Assembly: GCA_018816555.1 (NCBI GenBank) | Contig: JAHIVT010000031.1 | Span: 1 to 64,000, forward strand | Reading direction: 5' to 3' | DNA: 64,000 nt | Origin: Pseudomonadota bacterium | GTDB lineage: Bacteria > Desulfobacterota > Desulfobulbia > Desulfobulbales > SURF-16 | In this document: piece by piece, positions 1-14,955 of the stretch | Numbering within the stretch: position 1 is the stretch's first letter | Layout of the letters: the number at the start of each line of letters is the position of its first letter | Translations under genes and position numbers: made by a program | Notes under the pieces: generated by a model | What the model was told of the DNA's origin: nothing | The model's input: the letters and a program-made list of their open reading frames with translations, nothing else | Database searches by the model: none

Positions 1-164
1 ACCTGCCTTTTCAGGTGGGCATCGGCATTATCCTCGTAACCGTTATGGCGATACTGGGAAACAGGCTCATGGGGGGCAAGTTTTTCCAGCCAGACATCGT
101 AATCATGGTGCAGGCCGGACTCGTCGTCGTTGATAAAGACCGAGGCGGTGATGTGCATGGCGTT
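1..164 (-). pseudogene. yjbQ: 3' part of chromosomal yjbQ, split by the mobile element; continues off the left edge
   Basis: Read on the minus strand from position 164, the sequence encodes [14 protein letters not shown], then the [16 protein letters not shown] block, then [10 protein letters not shown] at the window edge. These are residues 42 onward of the YjbQ/UPF0047 family (secondary thiamine-phosphate synthase type). The matching first 41 codons lie at 8580-8702. The fragment has no start of its own except an internal ATG at 156-158, and an in-frame TAG of element DNA lies just upstream at 177-179. It aligns with about 6 differences in 54 residues to the intact copy inside the element (6506-6922). 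The C-terminal part of the gene is outside the window. Confidence 0.93.
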
Positions 165-401: not shown

Positions 402-1094
402 ATGAGCATGGGAAAACTAAATACCGAGGCCAGCGCAAAACCCGAATTTGTCACCACGAAAAAGGCGGGTCGAAAAGGAAGTTTGAAGAAGCCTGTAAGT
501 ATGGACAAAGGTCAAATACACCTTGTTAACGCGCCCCCGAAAAGGACAGTCGGCAACGGCAGTGAAAGCCGCCCTCTCCGAAACCGCAGCGTAGAAACTC
601 GTTTCAGGCCCGGAAATCAGCTTTGGAAGGTCCGATCCACCCACGGAAGAAAGCCACTATTTTCCACACCAGAAAAGTTGTTCGCTGCCTGCCGCGAATA
701 CATGGAGTGGGTGGATCAAAACCCCCTGAAGGAGGCCAAGCTACTGCGTTGCCGGGGAAGGGCTGCCGTAGTCTACCTTTCGAGGATGCGCCCAATGACA
801 ATCGACGGGCTGTGCCTCTTTTTGGGCATCAGCCAAGGAACATGGCGAAACTACCGCAAGAGGAAGCATGCCGGTTTTTTAAGGGTCTGTAAATGCGTCG
901 AGTCGATCATCTGGGATCAGAAATTCGGTGGCGCAGCGGCGGGCTTTTTCAAATACGCCATAATCGCCCATGAGTTAAGCAAGAAACAAAGGCAGAGGGC
1001 TCGCGAGCGGGCTGGTCCGCACCATACAAGGTCGGACGAAAGAGCCAGGGAGGCACGGGTGGCACTGCTGAAGATAACAGATGAAGGGGAATGA
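402..1094 (+). CDS. P22 gp3-like DNA-packaging protein (small terminase homologue)
   Basis: This 230-residue protein has a basic, low-complexity N-terminal region of about 85 residues and then a domain matching P22 gp3-type DNA-packaging proteins. The match covers YMEWVDQNPLKEAKLL, MTIDGLCLFLGISQGTW, FLRVCKCVESIIWDQKF and GAAAGFFKYAIIAHEL, roughly residues 86-190. In that family the protein binds the pac site and hands DNA to the large terminase. No large terminase, portal or capsid gene is nearby. The start is ATG 402 because GGAGGG lies at 387-392; an in-frame upstream start exists but lacks such a site. In the excised circle this gene would follow the recombinase stop codon (398-400) by one base. 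An alternative reading as a generic HTH DNA-binding protein is less likely. Confidence 0.8.
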   Translation: MSMGKLNTEASAKPEFVTTKKAGRKGSLKKPVSMDKGQIHLVNAPPKRTVGNGSESRPLRNRSVETRFRPGNQLWKVRSTHGRKPLFSTPEKLFAACREYMEWVDQNPLKEAKLLRCRGRAAVVYLSRMRPMTIDGLCLFLGISQGTWRNYRKRKHAGFLRVCKCVESIIWDQKFGGAAAGFFKYAIIAHELSKKQRQRARERAGPHHTRSDERAREARVALLKITDEGE

Positions 1095-1226: not shown

Positions 1227-1445
1227 ATGGCCCTACGACATAGAATTAGAAATCGGGAAGGCGGCACTGAGTCAGTCCGGCTTACCCCCATTAAGGCAAT
1301 TCGGCTGGCGTGCCTGGAATGCTGCGGCTGGTCGCCGAAGGAAGTGACCGGATGCACGAGCCCGCTTTGTCCCTTATTTCCTTACCGGGCCGGGAGTAAC
1401 CCCGAGCGGGCAGGTATCGGCGGTCGATTGGGGCAAAAAAACTAA
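1227..1445 (+). CDS. Cys-rich small phage-type protein
   Basis: This 72-residue protein contains PIKAIRLACLECCGWSPKEV followed by CTSPLCPLFPYRAG. This Cys-rich layout (CxxCC, then C, then CPL-PYR-G) recurs in small uncharacterised prophage proteins. The cysteines could form a metal-binding knuckle, but no function is known to me. A GAAGGAAAG ribosome binding site stands 6 bases before the ATG, and a candidate promoter lies just upstream. It sits between the terminase-like gene and the polymerase-like gene, in the same direction. The last 25 residues are low in conserved features. Confidence 0.65.
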   Translation: MALRHRIRNREGGTESVRLTPIKAIRLACLECCGWSPKEVTGCTSPLCPLFPYRAGSNPERAGIGGRLGQKN

Positions 1446-1575
1446 CTTGAGTCGGGATTTTCTTCGAAAGAAATAGACCTTAGGGGCTAGGGATACCGGA
1501 CACCCGAAAAACCTGTTTCCTGGCAGGCCCGCCCTTATTATTAAATCCAGGGTGGCACTCCAGGAGGTGCATAGA

Positions 1576-2835
1576 ATGAAGTCAATTCGTGTTCTAGCCA
1601 GAGAAGCAGCTAAACAACGCACTGAGAGTTCGGAATATCGTAAGTACCGTCTTAACAATGCTCCTTCCTTCGACCATTCCCTGACTCTCCTTGAGCAACA
1701 CGCGGCGGTATCACGCCAGATTTTATCCGAAATAACAGAAAAAAATCTTGACGGCACTGTTGGGAAAGAACGTATCAAAAGCTTTGAAATCCTTTGTGCA
1801 AATTTGCTCCGTCGGGAAAGGATGATAGCATTGCCCATGGCCCCAGAATATTGGACAAAATGCCGATACCGTCGAGCTGGTCAATTCGTTCGTGAAATAA
1901 TTCCTTCAATGGAACAAAAAGGGCTGATCGGTCGAAAGAAGGGTTTCCGGTTTCCCAATAATTCGCGCCTCACTAGGATTTGGCCTACGGATTCCTTCCT
2001 GGAGCGTTTTCCGGGGGAAAGATCCCAAGTTTTTATCGAAAGAATGCCGGTGGAGTTGGTCGTTTTGCGCGACGAAGAAAAAAGAGACAAGAATTATAGG
2101 AACACCAGGGAAACCGAAAGGATACGAAGCCTTCTACAAAAAGCAAACGCTCTCCATCGCAAGGCAGATATCTTGGACAGCGAAGGTAAGAGGATAGACA
2201 CCGACCTCCACGCCGTTTTCAATATTACCTTTAACCGGGGTGGGCGTTTGTATGCTGGCTGGGCAAAATCCTTCCAAGCTATGCCTGAAGAAGCCCGCAT
2301 AGCCATAACTATCGATGGCCAACTCGTCGTTGAACTGGATTTTTCAGCGTTGCATCCTCGCATGCTCTACGCGATGGAAGGTGTGCAATTTCCCCTAGAC
2401 AAAGACCCTTACGTCCTTGATCAAGATAAATCCCTTCGGGAGATATTAAAAAAGATCTTCCTTGCTATTTTGGGGAGCAACAGAAGAATTCAGGCCGTAG
2501 CGGCGGGCAACAACTACCTCCACGAAAATTACAGTGCATACCTTCTCCTGAAACGGAAGGGGAAAACCGTGGCGCAGCTAATTCGTGAATTCAGGAAACA
2601 TCACTGGCCCATCGTGAAATTCTTTCTTCGGGGGATGATGCCAGAAATCCAAAACCGGGATAGTAAAATAGCCATGGACATCCTTTCCCACTTCATCGAA
2701 AAGGATATTCCCTGTCTACCCATTCACGATTCCTTTATCGTGCAAGAGCAACATGAATACGAACTGCGGGCGGCTATGGATAGAGCGTTCCGCGAAAGAA
2801 ATAACGGATTTTCTTGCCCAATAAAAAAGTCTTGA
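1576..2835 (+). CDS. Family-A DNA polymerase-like protein of the mobile element
   Basis: This 419-residue protein carries two motifs that look like the catalytic core of family-A polymerases. LVVELDFSALHPRMLY (Asp about residue 255) resembles motif A. LPIHDSFIVQEQHEYEL (His-Asp about 384-385) resembles motif C. Between them, LREILKKIFLAILGSNRR could supply the basic fingers helix. There is no 3'-5' exonuclease or 5' nuclease domain, and the A-to-C spacing is shorter than in Pol I. The start is ATG 1576 behind AGGAGGTG (1562-1568). The likely role is element replication, with a non-catalytic or primase-like variant as the alternative. The call rests on motif reading only. Confidence 0.6.
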   Translation: MKSIRVLAREAAKQRTESSEYRKYRLNNAPSFDHSLTLLEQHAAVSRQILSEITEKNLDGTVGKERIKSFEILCANLLRRERMIALPMAPEYWTKCRYRRAGQFVREIIPSMEQKGLIGRKKGFRFPNNSRLTRIWPTDSFLERFPGERSQVFIERMPVELVVLRDEEKRDKNYRNTRETERIRSLLQKANALHRKADILDSEGKRIDTDLHAVFNITFNRGGRLYAGWAKSFQAMPEEARIAITIDGQLVVELDFSALHPRMLYAMEGVQFPLDKDPYVLDQDKSLREILKKIFLAILGSNRRIQAVAAGNNYLHENYSAYLLLKRKGKTVAQLIREFRKHHWPIVKFFLRGMMPEIQNRDSKIAMDILSHFIEKDIPCLPIHDSFIVQEQHEYELRAAMDRAFRERNNGFSCPIKKS

Positions 2836-3355: not shown

Positions 3356-4297
3356 ATGAGCATGCATTACTGCCGCAACTGCGGTAAATACATGAGTTTC
3401 ACAAGGGAAAAGTTAAGTATTTGGCATGGTTTTCTAATGGTAATCCTATTTCCATTTAGTATCCCATTTATAATCGAAAGAGCGTTGTCTTGTAATCGCT
3501 GCGTCGGTTGCGGGCTTACCTGGCTCCAAAGCATCTGGGCGGGAAATCGTTTATCCAAAATGCGTAAAGAGTTACGGGTGTTAGAGGAGGAAAACAGATT
3601 TTCACAAAAAATGAATAAAAATACCCATAGCAAGAAATATGACTACCCTGTTTTTAAATGGGCTATACGAATTATTCTGTTTTTGATCTTTACAAGTATA
3701 GTGGTTTCAATTTTCCAACCAGAACGTCAAACTATGACGACTGAAAATAAACCTTCCCACCCAACTGATATTGAGAAAAAACATAATGATAACGAAGCCG
3801 AAGCCGGCAATGGTACGCAAAATAATTCAAATTCAAAGAATGAAAATTTAGATAATGCTGATAAACAATCATCAGCGTTATATCACCTGTTTCACCCCGA
3901 TGAAACTGAAAGGGTACAGAGTAAACCACAGATATTGAGGGATCAGCAAAATCAATCGATTTCTGACACTACAACAGTAGCTAAAGGTTCTGTGGGAGGG
4001 AATACCTGGAAGACAGTAGGGGAGATCATAAGCACTGGGAAGGATACAAAATCGATATGGATAGAAATTCGATATGAAAGGTATCCAGGATATTATCAGC
4101 GCGAGTTGCATGAAGTGGATTGCGCGAAAAGGCTGATCAGATCTTCTCAAGGGGGAACTTATACGGATGACGGAAAATTAGTCAAATCCTTAGTTCCTGA
4201 CGAATATGAAGTCGATGAATATGACTTGTCCTCTATTCCACAAACACCTTTAGGAGGCATTTTCAATGCTCTATGCGGGAAATTAGCAAAAAAATGA
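3356..4297 (+). CDS. Zinc-ribbon membrane protein with a C-terminal adhesin-E-like domain
   Basis: This 313-residue protein begins with a probable zinc ribbon: CRNCG at residues 6-10 and CNRCVGCG around 46-53. A hydrophobic segment lies between the cysteine pairs (WHGFLMVILFPFSIPF). A clear membrane helix follows near 105-125 (WAIRIILFLIFTSIVVSIF). Next comes a polar Asn/Glu-rich linker. The C-terminal 100 residues (WKTVGEI...KSIWIEIRYER...YEVDEYDLSSIP) resemble surface-adhesin-E-like domains of periplasmic proteins. Start ATG 3356 has a strong AGGAGGGGG site. The gene is AT-rich compared with the chromosome. It may be satellite cargo; its function is unknown. Confidence 0.55.
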   Translation: MSMHYCRNCGKYMSFTREKLSIWHGFLMVILFPFSIPFIIERALSCNRCVGCGLTWLQSIWAGNRLSKMRKELRVLEEENRFSQKMNKNTHSKKYDYPVFKWAIRIILFLIFTSIVVSIFQPERQTMTTENKPSHPTDIEKKHNDNEAEAGNGTQNNSNSKNENLDNADKQSSALYHLFHPDETERVQSKPQILRDQQNQSISDTTTVAKGSVGGNTWKTVGEIISTGKDTKSIWIEIRYERYPGYYQRELHEVDCAKRLIRSSQGGTYTDDGKLVKSLVPDEYEVDEYDLSSIPQTPLGGIFNALCGKLAKK

Positions 4298-4582: not shown

Positions 4583-5386
4583 TTAGTGCGATGGCCAAAT
4601 GGGGTAAAGATTATCAAATTCCTTCCAATACGCATAAGCACAAACTGGCGTAAAGTCCCCTGCCGCCTTGGATTCTTTAACTGCCCTTGCGGCTTTCTCG
4701 TCGCCTCCTCCTTTTAATACCGCGTAAATTTCAAATGATTCAGAGGAATCGTTTTTAGCAAATGCCAAGGCTTTTTTTAAGGTCAGGGCTTCAATTTTAT
4801 GAATGTATTGCATATTGCCGAAGCTATAAGGAAAATACATCGTACAAGAAATGTGTGGGTATGGTTTGCTATTGCTTACCCCACATTCGGTGTAGAAGTT
4901 CACTTCGAATCTTGCTGACCTTATTTCATCTTCCATTTTATTAGCTATTCTCTGTAACCTTGATGTTGTTGATTCGACATTGTAAGTTTGCTTTGGTGAT
5001 GAAATAGAGTATTTGTTGAACATTTTTTCAGATGCTAATTTGTCAGCTTCTCTCGTTGCTTCTTCACGAGTTGTAAAATTTCCAAACCATACAAAGCTTA
5101 CATTTTCTTGCTCAAATGAAAAGGCTTCAATCCCTTTGTCAACAAGTTTATCCTTTAATCTTTCAGCCGTTTTGTTATTGTTAAAAGGGCCAATCTGAAT
5201 ATAGAAACCAATAATATTGTCTTTTTGACCTTTTTGGGCTCTGTATCCAGGCATAGGGACATTAGACAAGTGAACTATGCCATTGGGGTCAACGTAAGTG
5301 TAGAATTCTGCATATGCGGATGAAAGTTTCTGAGATAAAGCCGTCGCCAAAAGCAGCAAAACAAGTGATACATGCATTTTATTCAT
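4583..5386 (-). CDS. Secreted DUF4124/SPOR-domain protein
   Basis: This 267-residue protein has a signal peptide (MNKMHVSLVLLLLATALSQ, cleavage probably after AYA), then a DUF4124-like segment (FYTYVDPNGIVHLSNVP). Next is a SPOR-like repeat at about residues 60-130 (GFYIQIGPFNNNKTAERLKDKL ... SFVWFGNFTTREEATREAD). SPOR domains bind denuded peptidoglycan glycans. The C-terminal half has two widely spaced Cys residues and no family I recognise. It is the only element gene on the minus strand and has its own AAGGTGAG ribosome binding site. Its position suggests accessory cargo acting in the envelope. Confidence 0.6.
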   Translation of the reverse strand: MNKMHVSLVLLLLATALSQKLSSAYAEFYTYVDPNGIVHLSNVPMPGYRAQKGQKDNIIGFYIQIGPFNNNKTAERLKDKLVDKGIEAFSFEQENVSFVWFGNFTTREEATREADKLASEKMFNKYSISSPKQTYNVESTTSRLQRIANKMEDEIRSARFEVNFYTECGVSNSKPYPHISCTMYFPYSFGNMQYIHKIEALTLKKALAFAKNDSSESFEIYAVLKGGGDEKAARAVKESKAAGDFTPVCAYAYWKEFDNLYPIWPSH

Positions 5387-5905: not shown

Positions 5906-6496
5906 ATGGCTCAGAAAAATCCAAATCATCCTAAAAAAGGCAGCCTGCTTACCGTTGAGCCGATCAAGCAGGTCAAGAACATCAAGGCCATTAAAGCCCT
6001 GTTGGCCACCAAGCCAAGAGACTTAGCTCTCTTTGTGCTCGGAATCAACACGAATCTCCGGGCGAGCGACCTGATCGGGCTTAAGGTATCACAGGTTCAA
6101 GGGGTTAAGGCGGGGGAAGATTTAGTTTTGAAGGAAAAAAAGACAGGGAAGCAACGCCGGATCACCCTGAACAAGGCGTGCGTCGAGGCGGTCAGGAACC
6201 TTCTTGCATCCCGTTCTTGCCAACCCGACGATTACCTGTTCCTTGGGCAGCGTGGGCCGATCACTGCGATTTATGTGAACCACCTCGTAAAGCGGTGGAC
6301 CACCGCGATCAACCTAAAGGGGAGGTTCGGAGCGCATACCCTGAGGAAGACTTGGGGGTACCACCAGCGCGTTACGTTTGGGAGTGATATTCCGACCCTG
6401 ATGACTTGTTACAACCACAGCTCGCAACGTCAGACGCTTGATTACCTTTGCATTCAACCCGAAGAGATCAAGAATGTGTACGAAAACTGCTTGTAA
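5906..6496 (+). CDS. Compact tyrosine recombinase (catalytic domain only)
   Basis: This 196-residue protein carries the full catalytic set of tyrosine recombinases. There is an Arg in NLRASDLIGLK, a Lys in EKKTGKQRR, an HxxR motif in AHTLRKTWGYH, a further His in CYNHSS and the nucleophile in QTLDYL. It lacks the usual N-terminal core-binding domain, so it is about half the normal integrase length. It starts behind GAAAGGGGG and ends 9 bases before yjbQ. As the element ends fit a serine recombinase, this enzyme is unlikely to be the main integrase. Dimer resolution or DNA inversion are possible roles (inference). Confidence 0.82.
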   Translation: MAQKNPNHPKKGSLLTVEPIKQVKNIKAIKALLATKPRDLALFVLGINTNLRASDLIGLKVSQVQGVKAGEDLVLKEKKTGKQRRITLNKACVEAVRNLLASRSCQPDDYLFLGQRGPITAIYVNHLVKRWTTAINLKGRFGAHTLRKTWGYHQRVTFGSDIPTLMTCYNHSSQRQTLDYLCIQPEEIKNVYENCL

Positions 6497-6505
6497 GGGG
6501 AAAAC

Positions 6506-6922
6506 ATGAAAAGCTTCCGGAAGGAATTATGGTTCAGCGTCCCAACCCGTAGGGCTTATATCAACATCACCCCTCAGGTCGAGGAATGTCTTCGGGAAAG
6601 CGGCATACGCGAAGGGATCGTGCTCTGTAACGCGATGCACATAACAGCTTCGGTCTTTATCAACGACGATGAGGCGGGGTTGCATCACGATTACGACGTA
6701 TGGCTCGAAAAGCTCGCTCCGCACGAGCCGGTTACCCAGTACCACCACAACGTCGGGGAGGACAACGCCGATGCTCATATGAAGCGGCAGATCATGGGCC
6801 GTGAAGTGGTGGTAGCCGTAACAGACGGTAAGCTCGATTTCGGTACCTGGGAGCAGATATTCTACGGCGAGTTCGATGGCTGCCGAAAAAAGAGGGTTCT
6901 GGTCAAGATCATCGGGGAGTAA
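6506..6922 (+). CDS. yjbQ: Intact yjbQ carried by the element (YjbQ/UPF0047 family)
   Basis: This full-length 138-residue YjbQ-family protein belongs to a family often annotated as secondary thiamine-phosphate synthase. It includes the conserved [14 protein letters not shown] and HHDYDVWL blocks and ends [11 protein letters not shown]. It is about 85% identical (14 differences in 95 residues) to the chromosomal gene that the element has split. It lies between the tyrosine recombinase (9-base gap) and the serine recombinase (3-base gap), so it is co-transcribed with them. The crossover site of the chromosomal gene is altered here mostly by synonymous changes. The clear inference is that it restores YjbQ function to the host. 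Confidence 0.92.
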
Positions 6923-6925
6923 GTC

Positions 6926-8602
6926 ATGATACGGTTTGCACCAATTGTGCGGGTAAGCACCGAAAAACAAGAGCAACAGGGCGAATCCTTACGGACCCAG
7001 AAAAGCCAACTCGTCCAGTATGCTAAAAGCCTGGGAGGCGTTATTCCTGAGTTTTGCTGGCAATATTCCGGCCAGGAACATGCAACTCCTGATTTTGAGC
7101 GCAGGAAGCTCGAAAAACTGCTAAAGGATTCCAGTAAGGGGATATTTGATGCAGTGATCGTGACCGATGCCTCCCGCTGGTCCCGCGATAATCGCAAAAG
7201 CAAAGAGGGCCTTCAGGTCTTTCGGGAACAGGGTATTCGGTTTTTCGTCGGCACCACCGAATATTATCTTTTCAATCCCGAGCATACTTTCTTTCTAGGG
7301 ATGGCGGCGGAAATCGGCGAATTCCATGCCCGGCAGCAAAGCCTTAAATCAATTACAAACCGAATCGAACGTGCTCGGAGGGGCATTCCATCCACCGGAA
7401 AACTGCCTTATGGACGAATTTTTAATCCAGTGACCAGCCAATGGGACATCGACCCGGAAAAGCAGAAGAATATTATATGGGCGGCGGAGCGGTATCTTGC
7501 CGGCGAGCCTATGGGAAAGATATCTGCTACCTTGGGCATGAACCATACGAACTTATGGAAGGTCCTCACCCAAAGATCAGGGGAAGAATGGACAATATGC
7601 TTTCGTGTCAAGAAATTGAACGTTGACGAGGAGGTCACAATTCAGATTCCCCCTCTTTTACCGGCTGAAACCATAGCCGCAATCAAAGAGAGGGCCGCTG
7701 GTAACAAGACATATTCCCACGGCCAAATCAAGAACCCTTATTTGTTAGGTCGGGTCGTTTTTTGTGCAGAATGCGGTTATGCGATGTTCGGACAGACAAA
7801 CCACCACAATCGTCGCTATTATCGCCATCCTAGAGGAAGGACCAAGGTTTGCGATCCTAGCTTGTGGGTTCCGGCTGAGGACTTGGAGAAAGCTGTAATG
7901 GTGCAGATTGTTGCCATGTTCGGCGACCCTGAAATTTTAAAAGAGGCCGTTGAGCGGGCTACGCCTAACGCAGGGAGAACCGAGGAGCTTCAAACCCGAC
8001 GTAAAGACATCGAAAAAGGAATCTCCTCAATCCAGGCTAAAAAAGATCGTCTGGTTGAAGCCGTTGCGGATGGAATAATGTCCAGCGACGAAATCCGGAT
8101 GAAGATGGATAAGCTTCGTAGTCAGGAAGAATGTCTTCGGGAAGAAAAGGTCCGCATTGGTTGCAAGCTCGATAACCTTCCGGACTACCGACGGCAGGTT
8201 TCCAAACTGGCTAAACTTGCCAGGACAGCGAGTGCTGAAAGTATGTCTCGCAGGCCGGAACGGTTATCACAAATGACTTTCCAGCAGAAAAGGCAGCTTG
8301 TTCAAACCGCTTTCGGTGGAACGGACATGGACGGCAAGCGTCTCGGAGTCTACATCAAAAAGAATGAAAAAGGGATATGGCAATACGAAATTAAGGGAAT
8401 AGTCTCGGCGGCCGATTGGCTCAATGTCAATATCTCGCAGGCATCAGAACCGACCTTTGCTGGAAAGCTTCCTATGAAGAAAAAAGAGGCTCAGGACATA
8501 TTAGGCGTTGATACAGATTATAGCGATTTCAATCCATTAGAAGCTTTGGAAGAAGGTTTAACTAAATTTACTAAGCCTTGCACAGCAGCAGACCCTCTTT
8601 GA
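6926..8602 (+). CDS. Large serine recombinase (integrase of the element)
   Basis: This 558-residue protein starts at ATG 6926 behind GGGGAG. The N-terminal resolvase domain has the catalytic Ser in [16 protein letters not shown] (about residue 11) and the DASRWSRD motif. The recombinase domain follows ([12 protein letters not shown] onward). A zinc ribbon has [11 protein letters not shown], then the YYRH block and a further Cys. A coiled-coil stretch (about residues 350-415) comes next, as in phiC31-type integrases. The gene runs across attR: the last element-encoded residues are LTKFTKP, and the final CTAADPL plus the stop come from antisense yjbQ. In the excised circle the frame stays open for 78 further codons, to the TGA at 398-400. 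Confidence 0.95.
8555..8596. other. attR junction (element | chromosome)
   Basis: The element half-site TAACTAAATTTACTAAG (8559-8575) is followed by CC, then the TT core at 8578-8579. The yjbQ sequence (GCACAGCAGCAGACC on the plus strand) follows. Joining the yjbQ parts of attL and attR across the core restores an uninterrupted yjbQ frame reading [10 protein letters not shown], which confirms the crossover point to within the TT. Confidence 0.88.
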
Positions 8603-8702
8603 TACCGCTTTCCTCCAGGCATTTCTCCACCTGGGGGGTGATGTTGATAAAAGCCCGGCGGGTGGGCACCTCAAACCAGAGTTCCTTGTGAAAGCTTTTC
8701 AT
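8571..8702 (-). pseudogene. yjbQ: 5' part of chromosomal yjbQ, split by the mobile element
   Basis: Starting at ATG 8702 (minus strand) with a GGAG site 11 bases upstream, it encodes 41 residues of YjbQ ending in GLLLC. It then runs into element DNA, giving two foreign codons (KA) and a TAG at 8571-8573. The intact gene would continue with NAMHIT at 164 and leftward. The truncated 43-residue product lacks the conserved His-rich core and is presumably inactive. The host promoter and ribosome binding site appear untouched, so a short transcript antisense to the 3' end of the recombinase gene is expected. Confidence 0.92.
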
Positions 8703-8997
8703 TTTGATTATTTCTCCTAATTCCCGTCGTCTGCCTGACCGCTTTTTGTGTCGTTTTGCCTGGCATAGCCTGAATTTTCCGGACAATCTGCCAATATCTC
8801 ATAATTTTCAAATCTGTAAAGCATTCAATTTTTACTTATCACGCAACATCTCTTAAAAACAGTATTTTTTTAACATTTGTTTTCTTCTATCGCATGCATT
8901 TGTTATAGTGATATGAAGTTTCCAAATGACAAAACAGCAGGACATGGTTTTCTCCCCGGAGGGCAGCGCCTCTCCGGAGATTGATCCAGGGGGGATT

Positions 8998-9246
8998 ATG
9001 AAGACGAAGCTCGGCCTGGCAATGGCACTTTTGCTGGGGGTGATCATTTTTACCCTGCAGAATACGGAAATGATAAGTATCCGATTTTTGTTCTGGCAGT
9101 TTTCGCTGTCCCGGGCGCTCATGCTGTTTCTTGTCCTGGGCATCGGCATTCTCCTCGGATTCCTGCTCGGTTCCTACCGCAGAAATGCCCCCACTAATGA
9201 TGCCGACTTTTCGCAATGGAAAGATGATGCCGGGAGGAATGTATGA
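8998..9246 (+). CDS. LapA-like (DUF1049) inner-membrane protein
   Basis: This 82-residue protein has two membrane helices (about 4-20 and 38-58) separated by the TLQNTEMISIRFLFW segment typical of LapA/DUF1049 proteins. A short polar tail follows. In E. coli, LapA works with LapB in lipopolysaccharide assembly control; here no lapB is next to it. ATG 8998 follows a GGGGG stretch. The stop overlaps the start of the next gene by 4 bases, so the two are probably co-translated. Confidence 0.75.
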   Translation: MKTKLGLAMALLLGVIIFTLQNTEMISIRFLFWQFSLSRALMLFLVLGIGILLGFLLGSYRRNAPTNDADFSQWKDDAGRNV

Positions 9247-10613
9247 ATCTGTCCCCTCTGTTCACCCCGCAATCGGTGGCGGTCATCGGGGTGTCGGCCA
9301 GTAATGACCGGCATCCAGCCAATGTCATTTTTTTCAAGAATCTGCTGCGTTATCCGGTCAAGACCTATGCGGTGAATGTCAAGGGCGGCGCAATCGACGG
9401 CGAGCAGGTCTTTCCTTCGGTGAGCGCCATCCCTGACAGCATCGATCTGGCGGTGATCGCCGTACGGGCGGAATATGTTCCAGCCGTGCTCGAGGAATGC
9501 ATTCGGGCGGATGTCAAAAGCGCCATTGTCATCTCCGGCGGTTTTTCCGAGGTGGGCCAGGATGATCTGCAGGCCGGCCTGGTCAGCATTGCCTCGGGTG
9601 CCGCTTTCCCCTTTGTCGGCCCCAACTGTCTGGGCATCTACTCCCCCGGAGTGGTGGACACCTTCTTTCTGCCGACGGAGCGCATGGTGCAGCCGGAAGC
9701 CGGTGATGTGGCCGTGGTCAGTCAGAGCGGCGGCATCCTTGTTGATCTGTTGGTCAAATTCGCCCGGGAGGGTGTCGGCATTTCAAGCGCCATCAGCATC
9801 GGCAACAAGGCCTATATCCGCGAACTGCAGCTGCTGGAATTCCTTGATGACGATCCACGCACCGGGGTCATCGTTTTCTATGTGGAGGGTTTTGCCAGGA
9901 ATGAGGGCCGAGCTTTTGTCCAGCGGGCGGCAAAATGCCGCAAGCCGGTTATTGTTCTCAAGGCCGGCAAGACCAGCGAGGGAAGTGCGGCCGTGTCAAG
10001 CCATACCGCCTCCCTGGCTGGCGATTACCGGGTGTTTGCCTCCGTCCTCGCCCAGTACGGCCTCATTGAGGCGCGAAACGAACTGGAACTTGTTTCCTTC
10101 TGTGAGGCCTTGAGCTGCTATCCCGACACCGTGATCAAGGGACGGGTGGGTATTATCAGCGGCAGCGGCGGCCACGGGGCCATGGCGGTGGACGCCTGCG
10201 TGGGCGGCGGGCTGAGCGTGCCGCGTTTTACCGAAGCCGTTCAGCAGTCACTGCGCAACAGTCTGTCCGAGAGCATACGCACCATCGCCTCGGTGGCCAA
10301 TCCCGTTGACCTGACCGGCAGCGCGGTGGAGAACGACTTTATCGCCGCGGTGGAGGCCTTCTGTGAGATCGCTGACATCGACAGCATCCTGCTGCTCATG
10401 CTGCCTTATCTGCCCGGCATCAGCGCTGATCTCGGGGCGCGGCTGAGCAAGGTGTACCGGCGCCACGGCAAGCCTTTGATCGCCTATGTTCCCCATGTTG
10501 AAAAATACCGGATGCTCATCGAGGGCTTTGAACTCAACCGGGTCCCGGTGGCATCCTCGATTGAAAGCGCCGTTCATATGACCTCTGTACTCAGGAGATG
10601 CCGGCTGTGTTGA
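9243..10613 (+). CDS. ADP-forming acyl-CoA synthetase, alpha (CoA-binding) subunit
   Basis: This 456-residue protein contains a CoA-binding Rossmann domain (SVAVIGVSASNDRHPANVI) and two succinyl-CoA-ligase-like domains (FPFVGPNCLGIYSP, VAVVSQSGGILVDLL). The phosphorylated His is in SSHTASLAG (about residue 253). The family converts acetyl-CoA or other acyl-CoA, ADP and phosphate to acid, CoA and ATP, a substrate-level phosphorylation step. The next gene supplies the ATP-grasp part. The alpha stop lies 16 bases inside the beta gene, which implies translational coupling. Substrate range cannot be read from the sequence. Confidence 0.9.
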   Translation: MNLSPLFTPQSVAVIGVSASNDRHPANVIFFKNLLRYPVKTYAVNVKGGAIDGEQVFPSVSAIPDSIDLAVIAVRAEYVPAVLEECIRADVKSAIVISGGFSEVGQDDLQAGLVSIASGAAFPFVGPNCLGIYSPGVVDTFFLPTERMVQPEAGDVAVVSQSGGILVDLLVKFAREGVGISSAISIGNKAYIRELQLLEFLDDDPRTGVIVFYVEGFARNEGRAFVQRAAKCRKPVIVLKAGKTSEGSAAVSSHTASLAGDYRVFASVLAQYGLIEARNELELVSFCEALSCYPDTVIKGRVGIISGSGGHGAMAVDACVGGGLSVPRFTEAVQQSLRNSLSESIRTIASVANPVDLTGSAVENDFIAAVEAFCEIADIDSILLLMLPYLPGISADLGARLSKVYRRHGKPLIAYVPHVEKYRMLIEGFELNRVPVASSIESAVHMTSVLRRCRLC

Positions 10614-12299: not shown

Positions 12300-12302
12300 G
12301 AT

Positions 12303-12620
12303 ATGGCAAATAAAAGAGACCAAAATTATCTGTTTCAGCCGCTGACCGGCATGATCCTTGACGATCAGGCCAGGCTTTCTCTCGAAGAATTGTGTGAAAT
12401 CTGCGATATCAGTGCGGAAACGATTCTGGCGATGATCGAGGAAGGACTGCTTGAGCCCCAGGGCAGGAGGCCTCCTGAATGGCGTTTCAGATGCTATGAG
12501 GTCCGCCGGGTGCAGGTGGCCTTGCGGTTGCAGCAGGATCTCAGGGTCAATCTGCCGGGGGCTGCCCTGATTATTGATCTGCTTGAGGAACTGGAGGAAC
12601 TCCGGCGCCGCCTGGGATGA
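12303..12620 (+). CDS. cbpM: CbpM-like MerR-fold chaperone modulator
   Basis: This 105-residue protein begins with a stretch that fits MerR/CbpM folds (LSLEELCEICDISAETILAMIEEGLLEPQG) and continues with WRFRCYEVRRVQVALRLQQDLRVN. It ends in a Leu/Glu/Arg helix. CbpM binds the J domain of CbpA and inhibits it. Direct coupling to the J-protein gene (3-base gap) makes that role likely, although a DNA-binding MerR regulator of the operon is also possible. Confidence 0.75.
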   Translation: MANKRDQNYLFQPLTGMILDDQARLSLEELCEICDISAETILAMIEEGLLEPQGRRPPEWRFRCYEVRRVQVALRLQQDLRVNLPGAALIIDLLEELEELRRRLG

Positions 12621-12801
12621 TGTTTTGTTTCTCCGGTTTTTTGCACGGGGGAGATCCTGGAGTCTGTGGTTGATCGCCGAATAGCCGGTTTCCGGGTAGT
12701 GCTGGGGAAAATTGAAGATACTAAGGATGTCATTTACCTGATCAGCGCGGAGTTTGTCGGACATTCGCCTGAAGTTTTTGAGGAATAAAGGATTGCCTTC
12801 C

Positions 12802-14955
12802 GTGAATAATCATAATGTTTCCGTGGAGTTTCCTAATCTGCCCGCCCGGCTGGGCGGGCTTGCCGATCTGGCCGAGAATCTCTGGTGGAGCTGGAACCCT
12901 GCCGCCCGCATGCTTTTTAAAATGATTGACCGGCAGGCCTGGAAGGCAAGTGTGCACAATCCTGACAAAATGCTGCGGGATCTGCCCCGGGAGGTGCTGG
13001 AGGCCGCGGCGAAAAAGACTGATTATATTCGCTATTATGATCTAGTCATGTCCCGCTATCGTAAATATATGGCCAACAGGCTCTGTTCTCTTTTTCCTGA
13101 CTCCGACAATCCTTCCCAGGTGACCATAGCCTATTTCAGCGCCGAATACGGCCTGCATCGCTCACTGCCTTTTTATGCGGGTGGCCTAGGCTTTCTTGCC
13201 GGTGATTTCATCAAGGAATGCAGCGATCTGAGTGTGCCGCTCATTGCCGTGGGGTTCATGTATCCGGAAGGGTATGTCAACCAGCGGATCAGTGAATCGG
13301 GCTGGCAGGAAAATATCAGCACCCAGCTTGACCGCAATCAGGCTGCGATTTCAAAGGTATTCGACGGTAACGGCAACCATCTTATCGTTCAGGTGCCGGT
13401 GGTTGACCCGCCGATTTATGTGGCGGTATGGAAAGTTGATGTGGGCCGGGTGCCTCTCTATCTTCTCGATACGGACATCGAAGAAAATGATCCCTGGAAC
13501 CGGGGGATTTCCGCCAGGCTCTATATCGGCGACATGGAACAGCGGCTGCGTCAGGAGATTGTCCTGGGCATCGGGGGCATGGAGGTGCTGGAGGCCCTGC
13601 ATGTCAAGCACTCCATTGTCCATCTCAATGAGGGGCATGCCGCCTTTGCTCTTCTTGAGAGACTACGGGACCGCCTGCAGAACGGCTTCTCCCAGGAGGA
13701 GGCCTTCACCAACGTGCGGCAGACCACGGTTTTTACCACCCATACGCCGGTTCCCGCCGGTCATGACGTTTTCCCTTTTCCTTTGATGGACAAATACTTC
13801 CGTGACTTCTGGCCCTCTCTGCAGATGGATCGCGATACCTTTCTCAACCTGGGGGTTCATCCTGATGAGCCGAATAAAGGTTTTAATATGACGGCGTTTG
13901 CCCTGCGCCTGTCCGGCTATCGCAATGGGGTCAGCAGAAAACACGGAGAGGTCGCCAACCGGATGTGGCAGGGGCTCTGGGTAGCGGAGGACCAAGGGCA
14001 AGAGGCTGCTGCCATTGACTTTGTGACCAACGGCGTGCATGTGCCCACCTGGATTGAGCCGAAACTCGAACTTCTTTTCAACAAATATCTGGGGCCGGAC
14101 TGGCAGGCGGATCATGATAATCCCTATCTGTGGGAAATGATCGATGAAATTCCGGATGAAGAGCTGTGGAAAACCCACGTCTGGCTGAAAATAAAGCTTT
14201 TTAATGTCATCCGGGAGAGAGCTAGGCAGCGGTGGACCAATGACCGCTCTCATCCTTCAGTGGCACTGGCCTGCGGTACCCTGCTCGACCCCTCTGTGTT
14301 GACCATCGGCTTTGCGCGGAGATTTGCCACCTATAAACGGGCGGATCTGATTCTGCAGGATGCGGAGCGGTTGGGAAAACTGCTCGGCCGTCAGAACCAG
14401 CCGATACAGATTATCTTTGCCGGCAAGGCCCATCCGGCGGATGATCCAGGTAAACTCATGCTGCAGAAAATCTTCAACGCCGCCCGTAACCCGGACTTTA
14501 ACGGCAGGATCGCCTTTGTGGAGGATTACGGGGAGCAGATTGCCCAGTACCTTGTGCACGGTGTCGATGTCTGGCTGAACAACCCCCTTTCACCAATGGA
14601 GGCCTGCGGCACCAGCGGCATGAAAGCCTCGCTCAACGGCGTGCCGCAGTGCAGCATCCCTGACGGGTGGTGGCTTGAGGCCTATAACGGTGAGAACGGC
14701 TGGTCCTTTGACGGCGGGCATACAGAAGGTTCCCGTGATAAAATCGATGCTGACTTGCTGTATCAGGTACTGGAGGAAAAAATTATCCCTCTCTATTACC
14801 AGGTGGATGAGGATGGTACCCCGTCCGGCTGGGTGAGAGTCATGAAGCATGCCATCAAAAGCACGGCGGCCCAGTTCTCAGCCAGACGGATGGTGCGGGA
14901 ATATGTGGAGAAATTTTACAGCAAGGCCGCTCATTTTACCACCGAGGTGGCATGA
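12802..14955 (+). CDS. glgP: Alpha-glucan phosphorylase (GT35, short type)
   Basis: This protein of about 717 residues belongs to the TIGR02094-type alpha-glucan phosphorylases. Landmarks are NLWWSWNPAARMLF near the N-terminus, IAYFSAEYGLHRSLPFYAGGLG, VHLNEGHAAFALLERL, FARRFATYKRADLI, and the PLP lysine in ACGTSGMKASLNG (about 608). It releases glucose-1-phosphate from glucans. I place the start at GTG 12802 behind AAAGGA; an in-frame TTG at 12754 would add 16 residues. A second GT35 enzyme of the classical long type lies at 28349-30835. Confidence 0.88.
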   Translation: MNNHNVSVEFPNLPARLGGLADLAENLWWSWNPAARMLFKMIDRQAWKASVHNPDKMLRDLPREVLEAAAKKTDYIRYYDLVMSRYRKYMANRLCSLFPDSDNPSQVTIAYFSAEYGLHRSLPFYAGGLGFLAGDFIKECSDLSVPLIAVGFMYPEGYVNQRISESGWQENISTQLDRNQAAISKVFDGNGNHLIVQVPVVDPPIYVAVWKVDVGRVPLYLLDTDIEENDPWNRGISARLYIGDMEQRLRQEIVLGIGGMEVLEALHVKHSIVHLNEGHAAFALLERLRDRLQNGFSQEEAFTNVRQTTVFTTHTPVPAGHDVFPFPLMDKYFRDFWPSLQMDRDTFLNLGVHPDEPNKGFNMTAFALRLSGYRNGVSRKHGEVANRMWQGLWVAEDQGQEAAAIDFVTNGVHVPTWIEPKLELLFNKYLGPDWQADHDNPYLWEMIDEIPDEELWKTHVWLKIKLFNVIRERARQRWTNDRSHPSVALACGTLLDPSVLTIGFARRFATYKRADLILQDAERLGKLLGRQNQPIQIIFAGKAHPADDPGKLMLQKIFNAARNPDFNGRIAFVEDYGEQIAQYLVHGVDVWLNNPLSPMEACGTSGMKASLNGVPQCSIPDGWWLEAYNGENGWSFDGGHTEGSRDKIDADLLYQVLEEKIIPLYYQVDEDGTPSGWVRVMKHAIKSTAAQFSARRMVREYVEKFYSKAAHFTTEVA

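Follow-up and report, generated by a model that had tools for sequence, protein, structure and literature searches.

A gene close to the start of the window (the whole 64,000-nucleotide stretch of DNA that was analysed) encodes a packaging protein of the P22 type, and the locus raises the question of what such a gene does in a small integrated element that holds no other recognised gene for a phage head or tail. An earlier note on this DNA had suggested that the element is a phage satellite that redirects packaging. The features of the element and its borders were as follows.

3..162, minus strand: C-terminal part of the host yjbQ gene, attL side (UPF0047 6.8e-12), truncated by the contig start
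163..164: attL core TT, start of the element (located by comparison with the empty site in genome G021)
402..1094, plus strand: terminase small subunit, P22 gp3-type, with a 66-aa basic leader (230 aa, ORF intact)
1227..1445, plus strand: 72-aa protein with five cysteines (CLECC..C....C), matching only phrog_8795 at 0.046
1552..2835, plus strand: 427-aa phrog_4756 protein (4.8e-60)
3356..4297, plus strand: cargo, 313 aa, containing paired cysteines and a hydrophobic segment, no significant family match
4583..5386, minus strand: cargo, 267 aa, with SPOR (2.8e-10) and DUF4124 (3.4e-5)
5906..6496, plus strand: short tyrosine recombinase, catalytic domain only, 196 aa (Phage_integrase 2.9e-20, phrog_216 2e-38)
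6506..6922, plus strand: intact yjbQ copy carried by the element (TIGR00149 1.6e-32)
6926..8602, plus strand: large serine recombinase (Resolvase 1.2e-16, Zn_ribbon_recom 2.4e-9, phrog_95 2.3e-55)
8578..8579: attR core TT, end of the element (located by comparison with the empty site in G021)
8580..8702, minus strand: N-terminal part of the host yjbQ gene, attR side (71% aa match, residues 1-49)

The product of the gene at 402-1094, which the earlier note had called a gp3-type packaging protein, matched Pfam PF16677 (GP3_package) at 8.3e-21 (74.6 bits, the cut-off being 29.4) and the terminase small subunit family phrog_606 at 1.5e-38. Residues 71-216, which form the gp3 body, were 43-45% identical to the small terminases (TerS) of the P22 group, and the closest annotated relatives were Lederbergvirus-type TerS proteins. 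A profile built from the protein and 18 phage homologues from IMG/VR matched the P22 gp3 structure (PDB 3p9a) at 4.7e-75. In the AlphaFold model, for which the alignment with 18 IMG/VR phage homologues served as input, residues 1-82 were disordered and residues 85-230 mostly confident; 3p9a was its sole clear structural match (Foldseek 2e-9; VIA Z 10.4, rmsd 4.5, 118 aligned residues), with the runner-up entry at Z 4.1. A structure unlike the small terminases had been named in the note as an outcome that would overturn its reading; the comparison with the P22 gp3 family gave a clear match and this outcome was not seen. Altogether, sequence family and predicted fold confirm that 402-1094 encodes a genuine small terminase of the P22 gp3 type.

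The element's TerS thus shares its sequence family and predicted fold with P22 gp3, and differs from it in the 66-residue basic leader at its N-terminus, which is absent from the phage TerS proteins in the alignment, and in residues 182-195 of the conserved C-terminal region, where near-invariant phage positions are altered from LLNANIIARDLGL to FFKYAIIAHELSK (the phage version reads LLN-NIIARDLGL). Such departures could mean that the gene is decaying. A further difference is that no gp2 (TerL) gene adjoins it: downstream lie the 72-aa gene, whose product is possibly a small zinc-binding protein as judged from its cysteines, and then the polymerase-like gene described below. Among 80 IMG/VR viral contigs with this TerS family, TerL stood directly behind TerS in 79 (69 P22-type by homology plus 10 terminase-like ORFs judged by eye); the sole contig with no terminase-like ORF in that place was IMGVR_UViG_3300025738_000107 (L178, 4333 bp). 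The absence of large terminase, portal, capsid and tail genes, as claimed in the note, was borne out by PHROG and Pfam searches of the element's main ORFs and by tblastn with P22-type TerL and portal across the whole 64-kb window, neither of which gave a match.

The borders of the element were read against a genome of the same genus, G021, in which yjbQ is whole and the same neighbours lie beyond it; the flanks were 94-98% identical (98% between the piece at 3..162 and the intact gene, 94% DNA identity for the piece at 8580..8702). From the TT core at 163-164 to the one at 8578-8579 is a distance of 8,415 bp, which gives the length of the element and agrees with the 8.4 kb first estimated. The attB site reads GTGCATGGCG-TT-GCACAGCAG and the reconstituted attP junction TTTACTAAGCC-TT-CCCTAAGTAAAT. 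The attP arms form an inverted repeat, TAACTARATTTACTWAG, in which 16 positions pair over 26 bp, a value reached by 19 of 100,000 random pairs. Together with the recombinase gene at 6926-8602, whose final codons cross attR, the inverted arms conform to the layout that a large serine recombinase would be expected to have. This enzyme, presumed from its sequence to be the element's integrase, conserves Ser11 in RVSTE and showed no score for the PF07508 Recombinase domain. Its gene and those of the polymerase-like protein and TerS are all uninterrupted. The carried yjbQ copy was 86% identical at the amino acid level to the intact gene of G021 and is, as judged from sequence, a replacement for the element's own target gene.

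Further C-terminal yjbQ fragments were observed in G020 (C12 44091-48204, L090) and G416 (C69 25397-30762, L094), where they stand in a row, and on a separate contig of the host's own genome (G000:C145:81944-82120, L089). These fragments look like scars of repeated insertion at a hotspot. The short tyrosine recombinase has a 62% identical homologue beside a related serine recombinase in Ca. Tharpella. An Rfam search gave no match.

The 427-aa protein belongs to phrog_4756, a PHROG entry with no listed function. Its AlphaFold model (pLDDT 86.5, alignment of 28 sequences) showed, over residues about 165-427, the fold of A-family DNA polymerases and single-subunit RNA polymerases, with a VIA match to the Plasmodium apicoplast DNA polymerase (Z 15.1, rmsd 3.4-3.6, 230-232 residues) and mitochondrial RNA polymerases nearly as close. 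D263 and H392-D393, which supply the acids of motifs A and C, were invariant in all 28 sequences, making polymerase activity plausible for this predicted protein. Both marks of the A-family polymerase superfamily, the palm/fingers fold and the motif A/C acids, were thus present, and the model makes it a candidate replication or priming protein. With this gene and the serine recombinase, the replication-type gene and integrase listed in the note were recovered. Large phages of Vibrio, Aeromonas and Rheinheimera, ICP1 among them, encode relatives of phrog_4756, as does an island from the same order (G109) in which an integrase and restriction-type genes were assigned by eye; a single-sequence query of IMG/VR returned no close relative. 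The host genome holds a second phrog_4756 gene (G000:C51:100-1032, L020; 8e-13), truncated by a contig end.

Serine recombinases related to that of the window were found in 14 genome contigs, the longer ones being 34-53% identical in their best segments. Nine of the 13 recombinases compared, the window's included, were located at yjbQ, in hosts of Desulfobacterota type, Tharpella, Spirochaetota, Planctomycetota and Myxococcota. In a tree of the 13 the yjbQ-targeting enzymes did not form one clade and most forks remained open. Besides the element of the window, three more were bounded at both ends, and the core position in yjbQ was the same across the bounded elements.

NZ_AP021875.1, about 3.477-3.486 Mb: Desulfosarcina widdelii PP31 element, about 9.15 kb, in a complete genome
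QQVE01000068.1: planctomycete element, about 13.2 kb, with TerL (phrog_2 9e-26)
PGXU01000004.1: spirochaete element, about 11.7 kb, with the polymerase-like gene
Intact yjbQ copies in the bounded elements: window 6506-6922; L045 9560-9973; L093 13016-13429; L092 2660-3079

All four bounded elements carry a yjbQ-directed serine recombinase and a complete, replacement yjbQ besides the broken one, and three of the four carry the small tyrosine recombinase; the polymerase-like protein is likewise present in three (window, planctomycete and spirochaete, the last at 39% aa identity). The recognised head or packaging gene changes from one element to the next: TerS in the window, a lone head maturation protease in D. 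widdelii (phrog_530 1.3e-39, DUF2213 8.1e-33), and in the planctomycete TerL, preceded by an unassigned 162-aa ORF. No phage head gene was recognised in the spirochaete element, and nothing resembling a portal, capsid or tail protein was matched by the remaining larger ORFs of the sister elements. In the planctomycete element the yjbQ copy lies at the end opposite the recombinase. At a site other than yjbQ, an HK97-type capsid gene (L052 5305-6705, Phage_capsid 4.7e-55) lies upstream of a related serine recombinase as the sole recognised head gene; this locus was left out of the count because its left element end is the contig end.

In our view the element is probably a helper-dependent phage satellite, or something functionally very close to one, whose own TerS redirects the packaging motor of a helper (probability about 0.6). 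The large serine recombinase would integrate the element inside yjbQ, and the intact yjbQ that it carries would let the host keep the function of the gene despite the insertion. Upon infection by a suitable P22-type headful phage, the element would excise and be copied with the help of the A-family-polymerase-like protein. A ring of the element's TerS would then bind element DNA at a putative pac site and hand it to the TerL of the helper, so that helper heads would be filled with element DNA and transfer it in particles. The sister elements with other lone head or packaging genes strengthen this reading, as far as their gene content can tell. Also counting for it are an intact TerS that lacks the neighbouring TerL usual in viruses, the exact borders with their empty site, and the uninterrupted recombinase and polymerase-like genes. 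Standing against it are the missing helper in the host's metagenome-assembled genome (MAG), the lack of close TerS relatives in IMG/VR and 84,980 genomes and of the exact attP junction in IMG/VR, the lack of a recognised regulator of the AlpA/Stl type, the deviations of TerS, the spirochaete element with no recognised head gene and what reads as a fuller prophage at locus L054, discussed next.

At L054 a related recombinase adjoins ORFs that read, by eye, as protease, portal and terminase, so that the recombinase family probably serves real phages too. This fits a history in which a temperate phage integrated in yjbQ and lost everything except terS and a few early genes, as would the changes of TerS at conserved positions and the strong differences in GC3 between the genes of the element (0.35-0.70). 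We regard such a decayed prophage as unlikely. Other phage late genes were unmatched among the main ORFs, the intergenic stretches having been searched with TerL and portal; the main ORFs are intact, and the att sites are in place. The clean attL and attR within yjbQ and the intact recombinase also spoke against a decayed part of a larger prophage, which the earlier note had named as a finding that would overturn it. The main reason for preferring the satellite reading is that independent elements share a recurring, non-phage backbone while the lone phage gene changes, which one-off decay would not predict; this argument is drawn from three elements.

The same variation of the lone gene between elements would also suit an integrative island that is not a satellite, moving by conjugation, transformation or passive transduction. 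Its TerS would be a decoy, poisoning the packaging motor when P22-type phages infect, and the sister elements' lone protease and TerL would likewise be decoys aimed at assembly. The alteration of the conserved C-terminal stretch of TerS and the spirochaete member, which has cargo and no recognised head gene, point the same way, and defence by interfering with virion assembly is known from a tail-assembly inhibitor (PMC10884400). On the other hand, the element showed no recognisable relaxase or defence family, and nothing convincing emerged for defence families in the window or in the cargo of the sister elements. Furthermore, redirecting and poisoning are compatible, and one satellite may do both. 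An island of this kind is in our judgement an improbable account of the locus. That terS has no packaging role, having hitchhiked passively or been domesticated as a DNA-binding protein such as a regulator of the element, is very improbable: the weak HTH_17 match within it (0.032) and the basic leader would fit, but the gp3 body is conserved throughout, as is its predicted fold.

The satellite reading calls for a helper, and the note had suggested looking for prophages with a matching large terminase in the same genome. The outcome was negative: the host MAG (4.93 Mb, 183 contigs, 97% complete) contained no credible TerL. PF16677 matched there once, at the TerS of 402-1094, and PF03237 was absent. 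A phrog_2 match on contig G000:C34 was rejected as TerL, its ORF and RecB-like neighbour indicating a RecD-like helicase, and similar weak phrog_2 matches in genus mates were set aside as probably RecD-like helicases too. With PF03237 absent and the lone phrog_2 match RecD-like, no resident helper was seen in the host MAG. A helper need not be resident, since for one cfPICI the mobilising helper was not among 17 resident prophages (PMC11389934).

Outside the host, TerS had no close relatives in IMG/VR or in 84,980 genomes, and IMG/VR held neither close relatives of the serine recombinase nor the exact attP junction. Among 22 genomes of the host family TerS occurred only in the element of the window; PF16677 was present in 7 of 395 genomes of the phylum and in none of the 14 genomes with related recombinases. 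In D. widdelii, the TerL region of a prophage held no close relative of the element's head maturation protease.

Comparison with known satellites places the element near several families. It is a discrete integrated element with its own integrase and an incomplete set of virion genes, which are the general marks of a satellite. PICIs prove the principle of satellites with a lone terS (PMC6092414), an optional feature of that family that the element also shows. Like SaPIs and terS-carrying PICIs, it is small and integrated and has a replication-type gene, and its terS stands alone, other genes for head or tail being absent (PMC6092414). Unlike them, it has a serine recombinase at its border, no recognised regulator of the Stl/Rpr or AlpA type, an A-family-polymerase-like protein in place of primase-Rep, a TerS of the P22 gp3 type, a position in yjbQ with a replacement copy, and a Desulfobacterota-type host. 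For Gram-negative PICIs, defined by an AlpA/MerR-type regulator plus primase-Rep (PMC6092414), the main ORFs gave no Pfam, PHROG or NCBIfam match. The cfPICIs and Streptomyces satellites also bring part of a head or packaging module, in their case a full set (capsid, protease, portal, terminases) as against one gene here (PMC10690885); of the capsid, portal, protease and terminase set that defines cfPICIs, TerS alone was present (PMC10690885). PICMIs are likewise very small satellite islands with an integrase and one replication gene (PMC10803314), and none of their marks (AlpA, DUF3987/DUF5906 primase, fis site) was found in the element (PMC10803314). As these defining genes were missing, the element was not filed as a member of PICI, cfPICI or PICMI. 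If our inference holds, it would work like a terS-carrying PICI.

The PLE of Vibrio cholerae has a large serine recombinase, which we take to be a likeness to the element, and we know of no TerS of its own. Its helper, ICP1, encodes a relative of phrog_4756. Like the element, PLE has no large terminase (PMC7567579); it measures 18-19 kb (PMC6092414) and has RepA, as against 8,415 bp here, and hosts and attachment sites differ. The comparison with SaPI and PLE is one of functional analogy. Thus, the proposal of a satellite that redirects packaging was upheld in part: the gene combination and the sister elements speak for it, whereas the helper TerL was missing and the PICI, cfPICI and PICMI tests failed.

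Tentatively, and at odds that we put below even, the yjbQ elements may form a cross-phylum class of phage satellites in which each takes one or two different head or packaging parts (TerS, TerL or maturation protease) suited to its own helper, with no fixed inherited hijacking module. Literature searches found no report of phage satellites combined with large serine recombinases and a small terminase, of yjbQ as an attachment site, or of satellite candidates in sulfate-reducing-type bacteria. If the satellite reading is true, packaging piracy would extend beyond the satellite families known so far. A lineage of serine recombinases that ranges across Desulfobacterota, Planctomycetota, Spirochaetota and other groups would then have reached it with swappable single head genes, and sulfate-reducing-type bacteria would gain satellite candidates. 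D. widdelii PP31, with its complete genome, offers a directly testable case. The element is, in addition, a clear example of mobile DNA that compensates its insertion with a spare copy of the broken gene.

Other lone packaging genes were also noted. In G410 and G112, TerS-like proteins had no TerL recognised in their partly annotated surroundings; the one in G410 (L029 9545-10216, phrog_606 4.3e-16) stands alone near an anti-restriction gene and an integrase. At L232 a second planctomycete TerL (phrog_9 7.7e-36) and a tyrosine integrase-like ORF lie near each other (8713-10149 and 12302-13603); no head or tail gene was noticed nearby, and from its gene content this locus is possibly another lone-terminase element.
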